A stretch of 64,000 nt of DNA from Roseimaritima multifibrata. Its GTDB lineage: Bacteria; Planctomycetota; Planctomycetia; Pirellulales; Pirellulaceae. The notes beneath the pieces were generated by a model. It saw only the letters and a list, made by a program, of their open reading frames with translations, did no database searches and was not told the origin of the DNA. Shown piece after piece: positions 914 through 63,290 of this stretch. The stretch lies in assembly GCF_007741495.1 (NCBI RefSeq), contig NZ_CP036262.1, positions 4,774,001 to 4,838,000 of the forward strand. The letters run 5' to 3'. The stretch's first letter is position 1. Each line of letters starts with the position of its first letter. The position numbers and the translations under genes are program-made.

Positions 914-1224
914 AAACTGCCGGCAAGGGACTCCGCCGCACAAGCAAACATTGCTTGCTGCGGCTGGCGAGGAACCGGCCCCATCTACTAGTGGAACGGC
1001 ACAAGCCGTCCGACCTGCAGCGGTAAAAGCATCTGCGACACCTTCTCCGTCGCAAGCCCGCCCTAAGCAGGAAAACGCAGGCGCCCCGGTAGAAACCTAG
1101 GCCTGAAAGCCTGCAGTTTTGGCACACAATTCGCGACGTCTGATTACAGTACATGGTGCAGGGCAATCTGCTCTATTCACCAATCAACGTCCCGTTTCTA
1201 ACTCTTTCCGAAAGTCCCTAAGTC
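914..1224. other. Intergenic region with one degenerate REP-like palindrome
   Basis: No convincing gene is present. Around 990-1014 there is a decayed copy of the REP-like hairpin found elsewhere in the window (GGAACGGC, loop ACAA, then GCCGTCC). The rest probably holds the promoter of the downstream superoxide dismutase gene, but I see no clear box. Confidence 0.5.
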
Positions 1225-1951: not shown

Positions 1952-2196
1952 TAAGCGGAACGGCGCAAGCCGCCCGGAAAAGAAAGGTCCGTGCATTGTC
2001 TTCCTAGCGGTGCGGCGCGAGCCGCCCGGCCAATTGCGCGATCCCACGCTTCCAAAAAGGCCGGACGGCTTGCGCCGTGCCGCTAAGAAAGGTCCGTGCA
2101 CTGTCTTCCTAGCGGTGCGGCGCGAGCCGCCCGGCCAATGGTGCGATCCCCCACTCCCCAAAAAGGCCGGACGGCTTGCGCCGTGCCGCTAAGAAA
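1952..2196. repeat. Cluster of five REP-like palindromes with a 105-bp direct duplication
   Basis: One solo copy at 1952-1977 is followed by two head-to-head pairs (2005-2030 with 2060-2087, and 2110-2135 with 2165-2192). The block beginning GGTCCGTGCA at 1986 is repeated at 2091, so each inverted pair plus its spacer was duplicated as a 105-bp unit. Each copy folds as a short stem with a GCGA or GCAA loop. The arrangement resembles enterobacterial BIMEs. It lies between two convergent genes and is not coding. Confidence 0.85.
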
Positions 2197-8629: not shown

Positions 8630-9402
8630 CAGAGACCCCTACGCTTTAGAAAAGAAAAGCAAACAGCAACGATCACCGCTCGGGCGACCGCGACTCCGAA
8701 AAGCAAGCAAGAATATGCAAAATTTGAAAAGTACCGATTAACCGGCGGCCCCACCCCCTTAAAGGGCTTTAGTGTGGTTTTAACGATCACTAGGACCAAA
8801 TTGCAAGCAGAATTTTCTGCATTTGTCAAATAATGGCTTGACCATGCGATCTGAGTGCGCCGGAAATCAGGGTGTAAAGCCCCCTCAAGAACGTCCCTTT
8901 GGGGAGCCTTCAGCAGAGGCGAGGCGTCCCCATTTCACAGGGCTGTAGCTGGCACGATTTCGCAAGGTCATGGGCGTTCTGCCGGTCCTGCCAAGAGCGA
9001 ATTGCCGCACGCTAAATGCCACGCATTTCTTTAGCACCAATGCGCAATTTCACCGGTAAATCGCTGATTTTTCTTACGATACGGAAAGTCGGGATGCACC
9101 GTAACGAAGCGAAGAAAAACGTCCGCGACGATGCAGATGTGGTCGGCTCTGGCTGCGTGAAACGTACCGGCAAACCGCTGAAGTTTTCAGGTGGTGAATT
9201 CGGAAGATTTACGTCGTTTAAAAATCCGGCTACGCGAGGCTCAAAAAACATGACAATGCGACGCGAGCCAGTACGGCAAACCGCAGGATTTTTGAGCATT
9301 GCGGCGAGCCGGATCACGAGAAATGAAGCGTTGTTTTTAGCGGGCGAGCTAGAAAAGTGCTCCCGGAAGGAATTCCCATGGCGATTTGCAGACCGTCCGA
9401 GC
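8630..9402. other. Long non-coding stretch before the repeat array
   Basis: I find no supported gene here. There is a GCAGAA/TTCTGC inverted repeat near 8808. An imperfect hairpin joins 9224-9248 (ATCCGGCT...GCTCAAAAA) with 9289-9314. An open frame from about 9016 runs into the repeat array, but its codon use and sequence do not look protein-like. The promoter of the DUF1559 gene should lie just above 8630. Confidence 0.5.
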
Positions 9403-10010
9403 CGGTCGGCATGCGTCCAATGCCGCCCACTATTTCTTAGCGGAACGGCGCGAGCCGTCCGGCAAATACGCGAGGCATTTCCAAAGCGATGCCCGGTCGG
9501 CATGCGTCCAATGCCGCCCACTATTTCTTAGCGGAACGGCGCGAGCCGTCCGGCAAATACGCGAGGCATTTCCAAAGCGATGCCCGGTCGGCGTGCGTCC
9601 AACGCCACCCACTATTCTTAGCGGAACGGCGCGAGCCGTCCGGCAAATACGCGAGGCATTTCCAAAGCGATGCCCGGTCGGCGTCCGTCCAACGCCTCCC
9701 ACTATTTCTTAGCGGAACGGCGCGAGCCGTCCGGCAAAATACGCGAAGCATTTCCAAAGCGATGCCCGGTCGGCATGCGTCCAATGCCGTCCAATATTCT
9801 TAGCGGAACGGCGCGAGCCGTCCGGCAAAATACGCGAGGCATTTCCAAAGCGATGCCCGGTCGGCATGCGTCCAACGCCGCTCACTATTTCTTAGCGGAA
9901 CGGCGCGAGCCGTCCGGCAAAATACGCGAGGCAATTCCAAAGCGATGCCCGGTCGGCGTCCGTCCAATGCCATCCACTATTTCTTAGCGGAACGGCGCGA
10001 GCCGTCCGGC
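9403..10010. repeat. Tandem array of seven ~91-bp units, each with a REP-like palindrome
   Basis: The palindrome core (AGCGGAACGGC, then GCGAGCCGTCCGGC) begins at 9439, 9530, 9620, 9711, 9802, 9894 and 9986, so the period is 90-92 bp. The linker, with CGATGCCCGGTCGGC and a variable CGTCCAA(T/C)GCC part, is also repeated. All seven copies have the same orientation. Open frames running through the array on both strands are by-products of the repeat. Confidence 0.92.
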
Positions 10011-10036
10011 AATCGCATTGAAAACACAACGAACGG

Positions 10037-10100
10037 GCCGGACGGCTTGCGCCGTTCCGCTAAGAATAGGACCGGATAGCCGACGGGCCGTTCCGCTAAG
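10037..10100. repeat. Inverted REP-like copy plus a truncated copy
   Basis: 10037-10066 is a REP-like element in the opposite orientation to the array (loop GCAA when read on the minus strand). 10080-10100 carries only the GGGCCGTTCCGCTAAG half. Together they close the array. Confidence 0.8.
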
Positions 10101-10162
10101 AGGGTCGCTGCTGCTACCTCAGCCCGATGCCGCGGGTGAACGGGAAGAGAGATTCTCGATAT

Positions 10163-34228: not shown

Positions 34229-34318
34229 GCGTTTCCTAGCGGTACGGCGCAAGCCGTCCGGCCAATGTTTTGCCTACCCCAGTCACTTGCCGGACGGCTC
34301 GCGCCGTTCCGCTAAGAA
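34229..34318. repeat. Head-to-head pair of REP-like palindromes
   Basis: Copy one (from TAGCGGTACGGCGCAAGCCG at 34229) and copy two in inverse orientation (GCCGGACGGCTCGCGCCG, ending CCGCTAAGAA near 34317) flank a short spacer. This matches the paired form at 2005-2192. Confidence 0.85.
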
Positions 34319-34472: not shown

Positions 34473-35063
34473 CTACTGTTCGTTGATCGAGCTGACGACT
34501 TTGTCGATCAGTCCATAGTCGCACGATTCCTGAGCGGACATGAAGCGATCGCGTTCGGTGTCCTCTTCGATTTTCTCGAGCGAATGACCGGTGTGGGTGA
34601 TCATGATCTCGTTCATTTTCCGTTTGACCCGGCGGAGTTCTTCCACGTGAATCTGGATCTCATGAGCCGATCCCTGCATTCCGGCCAACGGTTGGTGAAT
34701 CATGATGCGGGCATTAGGAAGTGAAAAACGCTTCCCTTTCGCTCCCGCGGTCAACAACACGGCGCCCATCGAGGCGGCCTGTCCAATGCAGTAGGTCGCC
34801 ACATCACAGGAGACAAACTGCATGGTGTCGTAGATTGCTAACCCAGCGGAAATGCTTCCTCCGGGGCTGTTGATATACAGATGGATGTCCGCTTTAGGAT
34901 CATCCGACTGCAAGAACAACAACTGTGCAACCAGTGCATTTGCGATATCGTCGTTGACTTGCTGACCTAGAAAGATGATGCGATCTTTCAGCAAGCGACT
35001 GTAGATATCATAGGTCCGCTCTTCGCGGCCACTTTTTTCAATAACGTACGGAATCGGAGCCAT
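34473..35063 (-). CDS. clpP: ATP-dependent Clp protease proteolytic subunit (second copy)
   Basis: This serine peptidase forms the ClpP barrel used by ClpX or ClpA. From the ATG at 35063 it has 196 residues. The triad is S98 (GQAASMGA), H123 (MIHQPLAG) and D172 (TERDRFM). [20 protein letters not shown] is the family block. It lies 60 bp after the other clpP on the same strand. Two clpP genes in tandem can give hetero-oligomeric barrels in some bacteria. A longer in-frame start at 35123 is less likely. Confidence 0.95.
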
Positions 35064-35123
35064 CTTCTTAGAACCCTTCGTGTTCAGATTGATCGTATTT
35101 TGGGAGTGCGACCAGGCGGTCAA

Positions 35124-35744
35124 CTAGCTACTGGCCTCTTCACCTTCAGGGTTTGGCGGTTTTGTCAAAATATCATCGACCAAACCGTATTCTTTGGCTT
35201 TCTCAGCCGGCAAGAAGAAGTCGCGTTCGGTATCCTTGCCGATTCTATCCACCGGCTGACCGGTTGCATCGCTCAGGATGGTGTTCAGCACATCGCGGTA
35301 GCGGAAAATTTCAGCCGCTTGGATTTCGATATCACTGACCTGTCCACCGACGCCGCCCATTGGCTGATGGACCATGACTCGGCTATGCGGCAAGCAATAG
35401 CGTTTGCCCTTGGTTCCACCGGCTAGCAGGATCGCAGCTCCACTGGCGGCTTCGCCGACGCAGTAGGTTGCCACATCACAAGACAACATCTTCATGGTGT
35501 CAAAGATCGCCAGCGTTGCGGTCACGCTTCCTCCGGGCGAATTGATGTAGAAATGGATGTCTTTGCGGCGATTTTCGCTCTGCAAATACAACAATTTCAT
35601 CACTAATTCATTGGCGTTTCCAACGTGAATTTCGCCTTGCAAAAAGACGATCCGGTTCTCTAGCAACAAATCCCCAAGCGTCATCTGACGTTGACGCTGA
35701 TAGGATTGGTACGAGTGGCTGTTTTGCAGCACCCCTTCGTTCAT
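35124..35744 (-). CDS. clpP: ATP-dependent Clp protease proteolytic subunit (first copy)
   Basis: This is the second tandem ClpP, with 206 residues. The triad is S101 (GEAASGAA), H126 (MVHQPMGG) and D175 (TERDFFL). The residues after the nucleophile are GAA rather than the usual MGA of ClpP, a small departure from the canonical motif that it does not share with its neighbour. [20 protein letters not shown] is intact. The tail is acidic and ends PEGEEASS. It is the first gene of the clpP pair. Neither tig nor clpX is in the window. Confidence 0.94.
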   Translation of the reverse strand: MNEGVLQNSHSYQSYQRQRQMTLGDLLLENRIVFLQGEIHVGNANELVMKLLYLQSENRRKDIHFYINSPGGSVTATLAIFDTMKMLSCDVATYCVGEAASGAAILLAGGTKGKRYCLPHSRVMVHQPMGGVGGQVSDIEIQAAEIFRYRDVLNTILSDATGQPVDRIGKDTERDFFLPAEKAKEYGLVDDILTKPPNPEGEEASS

Positions 35745-50244: not shown

Positions 50245-50358
50245 GAGTGGAACCGTGTTTGGGAATCATCGAGGAAAGGGGAGGGCGGCCTATTGTAGCG
50301 GGCAGCAGCACCGTTCGCCTTCGCCAACGGGCTGGCGGAGAAGGAACCAGCCATTGCC

Positions 50359-50482
50359 GTAGCTCCGCCTCTCCGAGGCGGAGAGTTTGCTCAGCACGAG
50401 TCTCGGAGAGACTCGACTACGTAGCTCCGCCTCTCCGAGGCGGAGAGCTTGCTCAGCACGAGTCTCGGAGAGACTCGACTAC
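50359..50482. repeat. Two tandem copies of a 62-bp double-hairpin repeat
   Basis: Units at 50359-50420 and 50421-50482 differ at one base. Each has one hairpin CTCCGCCTC-TCC-GAGGCGGAG and a second GAGTCTC-GGA-GAGACTC, joined by a spacer with GTTTGCTCAGCAC or GCTTGCTCAGCAC. More copies are at 59570-59910 and 62925-63290. Confidence 0.92.
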
Positions 50483-50493
50483 GCTTGCGGCGA

Positions 50494-59569: not shown

Positions 59570-59910
59570 CCCCTCGTAGCTCCGCCCCTCGTAGCTCCGC
59601 CTCTCCGAGGCGGAGAACCCAGCGAGCACGAGTCTCGGAGAGACTCTACTACGTGCGATTGCACCGACCCCAGATGGCGATGTTTAGGCCGCGGTATCCG
59701 CGTAGCTCCGCCCGCCTCGTAGCTCCGCCTCTCCGAGGCGGAGAGCCCAGCGAGCACGAGTCTCGGAGAGACTCGTGCTACGTGCTATTACACCGCCTCA
59801 GATGGCGATGTTTGGGCAGCAGTGTCCGCGAAGCTCCGTCGCCTCGTAGCTCCGCCTCTCCGAGGCGGAGAACCCAGCAAGCACGAGTCTCGGAGAGACT
59901 CTACTACGTG
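59570..59910. repeat. Three copies of the double-hairpin repeat with ~127-bp period
   Basis: Copies begin near 59591, 59718 and 59844. Between them a linker such as GATGGCGATGTTT is also repeated. The hairpins CTCCGCCTC/GAGGCGGAG and GAGTCTC/GAGACT(C) are kept, and their T/G-rich spacers vary. It fills the gap between the dehydrogenase and BON genes. Confidence 0.9.
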
Positions 59911-59942
59911 CTAATACACCGACCTGTTTGGGGCTTGTGATT

Positions 59943-62924: not shown

Positions 62925-63290
62925 CAAGAGGCGGAGCAGCGAAGGTCGAACCGACCGGGAAATCGATGCCCAAGTCGGAGCGATCCCCCGTAGCCGAGTC
63001 TCTCCGAGACTCGTGCATGCCAACTCTCCGCCTCGGAGAGGCGGAGCTACGAAGGTCGAACCGACCGGGAAATCGATGCCCAAGTCGGAGCGATCGCACG
63101 TAGTAGAGTCTCTCCGAGACTCGTGCTTGCCAACTCTCCGCCTCGGAGAGGCGGAGCTACGAAGAGGCGGAGCTACGAAGAGGCGGAGCAGCGAAGGTCG
63201 AACCGACCGGGAAATCGATGCCCAAGTCGGAGCGATCCCCCGTAGCCGAGTCTCTCCGAGACTCGTGCATGCCAACTCTCCGCCTCGGGG
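62925..63290. repeat. Inverse-oriented double-hairpin repeat cluster
   Basis: Units starting GAAGGTCGAACCGACCGGGA are at 62941, 63051 and 63193 (first period 110 bp). Each carries GAGTCTC-TCC-GAGACTC and CTCCGCCTC-GGA-GAGGCGGAG, which is the reverse orientation of the copies at 50359 and 59591. The third copy is interrupted at its second palindrome by the element at 63291-63577 and resumes after it. Confidence 0.9.

Follow-up and report, generated by a model that had tools for sequence, protein, structure and literature searches.

Bulged YTAG hairpins of Roseimaritima multifibrata, probable REP elements of a divergent class-3-like TnpA_Y1 transposase

The window analysed here is a stretch of 64,000 nucleotides from Roseimaritima multifibrata (G000:C1:4774001-4838000, where G000 is the species' own genome, 7.22 Mb in a single contig), and four sites in it hold 16 full hairpins and one truncated arm of a family that very probably represents repetitive extragenic palindromic (REP) elements served by a transposase encoded elsewhere in the genome. 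The first site is a degenerate single hairpin with the loop ACAA (989–1013, plus strand). The second begins with a hairpin at 1953–1977 (plus) that has an A-C mismatch at a covarying pair, the intermediate that the first-pass annotation had seen near 1955, and continues with two doublets, in which hairpins of the G-C subtype with a GCGA loop at 2005–2029 and 2110–2134 (both plus) have partners of the A-T subtype with a GCAA loop at 2061–2085 and 2167–2191 (both minus), the 2005 pair with its feet outside. The third is a tandem array on the plus strand (9402–10012, period 91 bp, 6.7 units) with seven hairpins starting at 9438, 9529, 9619, 9710, 9801, 9893 and 9985, followed by the feet-outside partner of the last copy (10038–10062, minus, loop GCAA) and by the truncated arm (10084–10101, minus), with which the 17 copies of the first-pass annotation are all accounted for. 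The fourth is a doublet of 34237–34261 (plus, loop GCAA) and 34290–34314 (minus, loop GCGA).

The hairpin core reads YTAG-CGG-x-yCGGC-GNRA-GCCGz-CCG, with a stem of 8 bp (CGG-x-yCGGC / GCCGzCCG), one bulged base x, and an unpaired but conserved foot 5' of the stem that is mostly TTCYTAG in the own genome. A sequence-only profile run over the fetched sequence gave 397 ungapped copies, 194 from the own genome and 203 from others. The outermost C-G pair, which the annotation had left out of its otherwise valid bulged stem, is present in 393 of these, and the loop is GNRA in 388; inside the window GCGA or GCAA is found in 15 of the 16 copies, so that the claim of GNRA loops fails for the copy at 989. 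The bulge is A in 219 copies, C in 101, T in 77 and never G, with the assignment ambiguous between x and y where both are A. Among the 12 commonest foot types TTAG accounts for 310 copies, CTAG for 56 and GTAG for 9, which is not the GTAG foot of the GTAG-tagged REP superfamily.

A search of the whole genome for further copies with the strict pattern TAGCGGNNCGGCGNRAGCCGNCC gave 480 exact matches (204 + 276), and a relaxed pattern with the second covarying pair freed gave 600 (292 + 308), the reversed patterns giving 0 in both cases; the family thus consists, like REPs, of short dispersed palindromes in high copy number. Its distribution is patchy, with 7 of the 40 nearest-relative genomes and 26 of 346 genomes of the order carrying it, the own genome included in both counts. 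Named genomes hold at least 120 hairpin stretches, and among the 80 matches listed all hosts are planctomycetes, including Rhodopirellula, Stieleria, Aporhodopirellula and Roseimaritima. The covariance-model search scored at most 150 candidates per genome and its counts are therefore not used as copy numbers; among these best candidates it found 0 matches in genome G003, 7 in G334 and 6 in G022.

The family is mostly extragenic, as expected of REPs, with 3 of 162 copies inside open reading frames (ORFs) of at least 250 aa, though such ORFs cover 68% of the bases. In the window, the copies at all four sites fall between larger ORFs, at two of them between convergent ones, and small ORFs of less than 175 aa overlap some copies. 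Two adjacent clpP-like ORFs are located at 34473–35744, and the doublet at 34237–34314 lies just past their 3' end; an empty-site test beside clpP found the response-regulator side in one of five genomes.

Inverted doublets and arrays, a further property of REPs, are common. Neighbouring copies in 1.29 Mb of own sequence and the locus of the candidate partner gene described below form 69 feet-outside doublets, 51 feet-inside doublets and 27 same-strand pairs, and unlike stem subtypes are joined in 61 of the 69 feet-outside doublets, like subtypes in 25 of the 27 same-strand pairs. Since arrays are not independent, a single doublet per cluster was drawn for 21 clusters, out of a total of 39 that includes 14 singletons. 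The stem subtypes differ in 18 of these 21 doublets (shuffled mean 13.7, p 0.006), and the loops differ in 20 (shuffled mean 12.6, p 0.00015). Heterodimers are reported in many GTAG and CGTC families in the text of PMC3733652, which suggests that they may be protected from enzymes removing long palindromes. The doublet at 9980–10068 folds into one long hairpin (z -9.6); the folding energy of single hairpins is not exceptional.

Two stem pairs vary in the 397 copies. Pair 13-26 is A-T in 346, G-C in 29 and T-A in 12, pair 14-25 is C-G in 289 and G-C in 101, and the remaining six are almost invariant. In the 77 distinct cores 94.0% of the cells are paired against a shuffled mean of 86.7, and the covariation score is 0.210 against 0.090 in shuffles and 0.112 in the best slid register. 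None of 500 shuffles reached the observed percentage of pairing, number of cells with changes on both sides, or score; the hairpin is therefore under constraint, with the double changes confined to two of the eight pairs and to a few amplified subtypes. The first-pass annotation had asked for such a statistical test and had taken the compensatory changes to imply selection for the hairpin; the score upholds this, and the small number of events and of amplified stem subtypes tempers it.

The annotation had also found no Y1 transposase or REP-associated tyrosine transposase (RAYT) gene in the window. None of the eight matches to the Pfam family PF01797 (Y1) in the genome is located there, but the suggested check of the same genome yields, besides these eight, a candidate partner outside the window at 6.384 Mb (G000:C1:6384302-6384805(-)), an open frame of 168 aa flanked by 13 hairpin copies at one end and 19 at the other. 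Its protein scores 18.8 bits against the Pfam cut-off of 23 and was absent from the first PF01797 search. Y1 queries (27 of the 31 proteins obtained from 38 Y1 loci) were run over 120 hairpin loci, 1.29 Mb of the own genome and seven own Y1 stretches. A profile search of the fetched hairpin loci gave one Y1-like ORF, in locus L171 with hairpins at both ends, and this protein was the lead to the candidate gene. One close copy of the gene is found in the own genome, between arrays of the same hairpins. Four relatives are 61–65% identical, and those of G002, L171 and G212 (63–65%) lie among the same hairpin family, the one of G334 among a variant hairpin whose foot is TTAG and whose loops are GCGA or GCAA. 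A Y1-type gene flanked by the same repeats, another property of REP systems, is present at L283, L282, L171 and L293. Deeper relatives, mostly 35–53% identical, have other repeats or none common to both sides.

The relative in G002 lies above the Pfam cut-off with 28.7 bits. The own protein is far below the NCBIfam model REP_Tyr_transpos (class 2 RAYT), for which the scores are 8.7, 15.6 and 19.7 bits against a cut-off of 80. All 22 proteins compared share W133, Y154 and Q159; they also share the HUH residues, but HUH formed part of the filter by which the proteins were picked. The predicted model (pLDDT, predicted local distance difference test, 85.5) matches transposases of the IS200/IS608/ISDra2 type and then the RAYT 4er8, the latter match being nearly tied with Thg1 enzymes, and a sequence search of the PDB gave no match.

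In its Y-x4-Q signature, size and host phylum the candidate protein resembles class 3 TnpA_Y1, and the NH-x-H type HUH motif and W of that class are likewise present. In the part of PMC6006769 used here class 3 is rare, resembles both insertion sequences and REP systems, is of similar size and mainly found in Planctomycetes, and has genes flanked by multicopy atypical hairpins without a GT[AG]G foot; these flanking structures are described as atypical and weaker, as found by manual inspection, and as having a CnGA foot. The own family differs from this account in its YTAG foot (mostly NNAG in the wider set described below; the deeper relatives L307, L344 and L359 show CTGAG) and in the loop and bulge that it has in common with many class-3-like loci.

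The wider set comprises 79 class-3-like loci, namely 73 of 97 matches, five more and L171, and nearly all of the 24 matches left outside are the weakest. It includes fragments, interrupted genes and several loci per genus or genome, and L291 is 24% identical over part of its length; since the loci are related and in part share genera they are not independent, and the counts are not to be read as a probability. At 33 of the 79 loci the gene is flanked on both sides by cGNNAg hairpins that agree in their first three stem bases and number three or more; 30 of the 33 show AG 5' of the stem, and 31 have the bulge on the foot side. If the closing pair is left free, two-sided repeats of GNNA (TNNC on the opposite strand) occur at 34 of the 79 loci and those of every other loop-end pair at no more than 4, and none of 79 random stretches shows a two-sided GNNA. 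The close clade of five has the shape 3+b1/0+5 with GCRA loops, which is the modal shape in 0 of 28 others. Loops were also counted blind to GNNA and per locus, a pooled de novo tally having been dominated by one locus. Of the 79 loci 15 had no repeat, 26 a repeat without enough hairpin copies and 38 a repeated hairpin; 33 of these 38 had a modal loop of 4 nt, and 30 of the 33 were GNNA on either strand (2 of 16 loop-end types). The same count at 38 other Y1 loci gave 11 repeated hairpins, 2 with a 4-nt loop and 1 GNNA, the last at a class-3 gene (L143 = L284). The architecture common to the class-3-like loci is the new part. The motif d(cGNNAg) is extra-stable in DNA. The loop ends stay while the stems change, and this pattern in the sequences fits recognition by the protein in single-stranded DNA.

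The hairpins are thus, with high probability, non-autonomous REP elements, most of them in feet-outside doublets and tandem arrays, that are mobilised in trans by the divergent class-3-like HUH/Tyr transposase of the TnpA_Y1 superfamily encoded at 6.384 Mb. The observations behind this are the genome-wide family, the covariation, the extragenic location, the doublets, the gene inside its own hairpins in the own genome and in relatives, and the catalytic motifs, together with the predicted fold. If it works like IS608 and the TnpA-REP of E. coli, the enzyme would bind the hairpin in single-stranded DNA and may recognise it by the TAG foot, the cGNNAg tetraloop and the bulge in the foot-side arm; the predicted catalytic tyrosine Y154 would cut near the foot, and doublets would be copied or moved to other extragenic sites.

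Several results qualify this picture. No close gene was found in the hairpin-rich genomes G016, G076, G274 and G001, whose gene-less families need gene loss, missing contigs or another enzyme. GNNA is repeated two-sidedly at 5 of 33 other Y1 loci (6 with the strand readings joined; the 38 loci without L143, L149, L154, L155 and L160), and is therefore enriched in class 3 and not exclusive to it. Counts of covarying pairs and of pair types do not exceed those of the shuffles, being reached by 479 and 427 of 500, respectively. The last result, with the few subtypes and the two covarying pairs out of eight, favours the explanation that the compensatory changes merely represent a small number of old subtypes that were copied often, without current selection for the hairpin. 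We consider this unlikely, as the subtypes recur in several genera alongside one more type, T-A at the second pair, and as G334 and other class-3-like loci replace much of the stem and keep the pairing, foot, bulge and loop ends.

It is likewise doubtful that the hairpins are kept for a function in RNA, as terminators, stabilisers of mRNA or RNase targets at 3' ends, with an incidental or past link to a transposase. GNRA is a classical RNA tetraloop, and the pair-preserving changes, the near absence from long ORFs and the position of the window copies between larger, at two sites convergent, ORFs would all suit such a function, though small ORFs overlap some of those copies. Against it, no Rfam family except a tRNA matches in the window, G-T intermediates are few among the variants (17 of the 8 x 397 cells), the foot is conserved without being paired, and different repeat families next to one class of transposase have the cGNNAg loop ends in common. 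The compensatory changes suit a hairpin that a transposase handles as single-stranded DNA no less well than they suit an RNA, and a loop that looks like GNRA need not mean RNA.

That one of the eight PF01797-detected Y1 genes, which do exist in the genome, mobilises the family is highly improbable, as within 8–10 kb on either side of them there is no copy at up to 3 mismatches except one 6.7 kb away, two inspected loci are flanked by other repeats (GTAGGCCGGA... and GTAGCGGTGGCATCC...), and 30 of 44 loci scanned in six hairpin-bearing relatives gave three chance-like 3-mismatch matches. These genes were rejected as partners, the family hairpins not lying beside any of the eight.

Compared with known systems, the hairpins have in common with the E. 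coli RAYT/TnpA-REP and its REPs and bacterial interspersed mosaic elements that they are short extragenic palindromes with a 5' tetranucleotide foot and an irregular stem, that they form doublets and arrays, and that the candidate protein is of the HUH-Tyr type (PDB 4er8 and the part of PMC8266576 used here); they differ in that the foot there is GTAG and that the own protein stays below the NCBIfam RAYT model. The GTAG-tagged REPs, R. baltica being one of the reported hosts, likewise include families of a planctomycete and have repeat-flanked transposase genes, and many of their families prefer heterodimers, but they are defined by the GTAG tag; the own family was compared with the text of PMC3733652. 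In contrast to the IS200/IS605 TnpA systems (IS608, ISDra2), the hairpins are here dispersed in hundreds of copies. No description of the YTAG family or of a GNNA loop for such repeats was found in the passages of the literature consulted, within which PMC3733652 was covered by its text.

Whether class-3-like TnpA_Y1 constitute a third REP system, self-contained and with a hairpin code specific to it, appears evenly balanced. That code would consist of an AG-ended foot, a short outer stem, a foot-side bulge and cGNNAg ends that are kept while the stem is rewritten between families; the G-A ended DNA tetraloop would be the feature recognised, and the unit that moves would be a pair of differing subtypes (GCAA with GCGA). 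The roughly 600 copies with one close gene inside them, the covariation and the architecture at 33 of 79 loci provide a clear class 3 substrate to test. The own gene lies below the usual Y1 cut-off, although its G002 relative lies above it, so that partners of further 'orphan' REP families may likewise have been missed.

Other repeats were seen in the window and genome. Palindromes of CGTAGCTCCGCCTCTCCGAGGCGGAG with GTCTCGGAGAGACTC at 50358–50483, 59575–59924 and 62927–63164 (tandem units of 62, 128 and 110 bp) look like a second REP-like family. A second class-3-like gene of the own genome (L290, G000:C1:3434467-3434916) has 10 flanking copies of a different repeat, CCGTTTGGGCGATAGCCCCGG, and is probably a second REP system. 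Two near-identical neighbouring RAYT-like genes (L007, G000:C1 at about 6.489 Mb) lie among GTAG repeats GTAGGCCGGA...GCTCCGGC, and another RAYT-like gene (L008, G000:C1:4494589) among its own GTAG repeats GTAGCGGTGGCATCCTGCCGCCG. The IS200-like genes at L001, L138 and L144 have 7, 10 and 14 flanking repeats, respectively, holding GCTTCGCGA.
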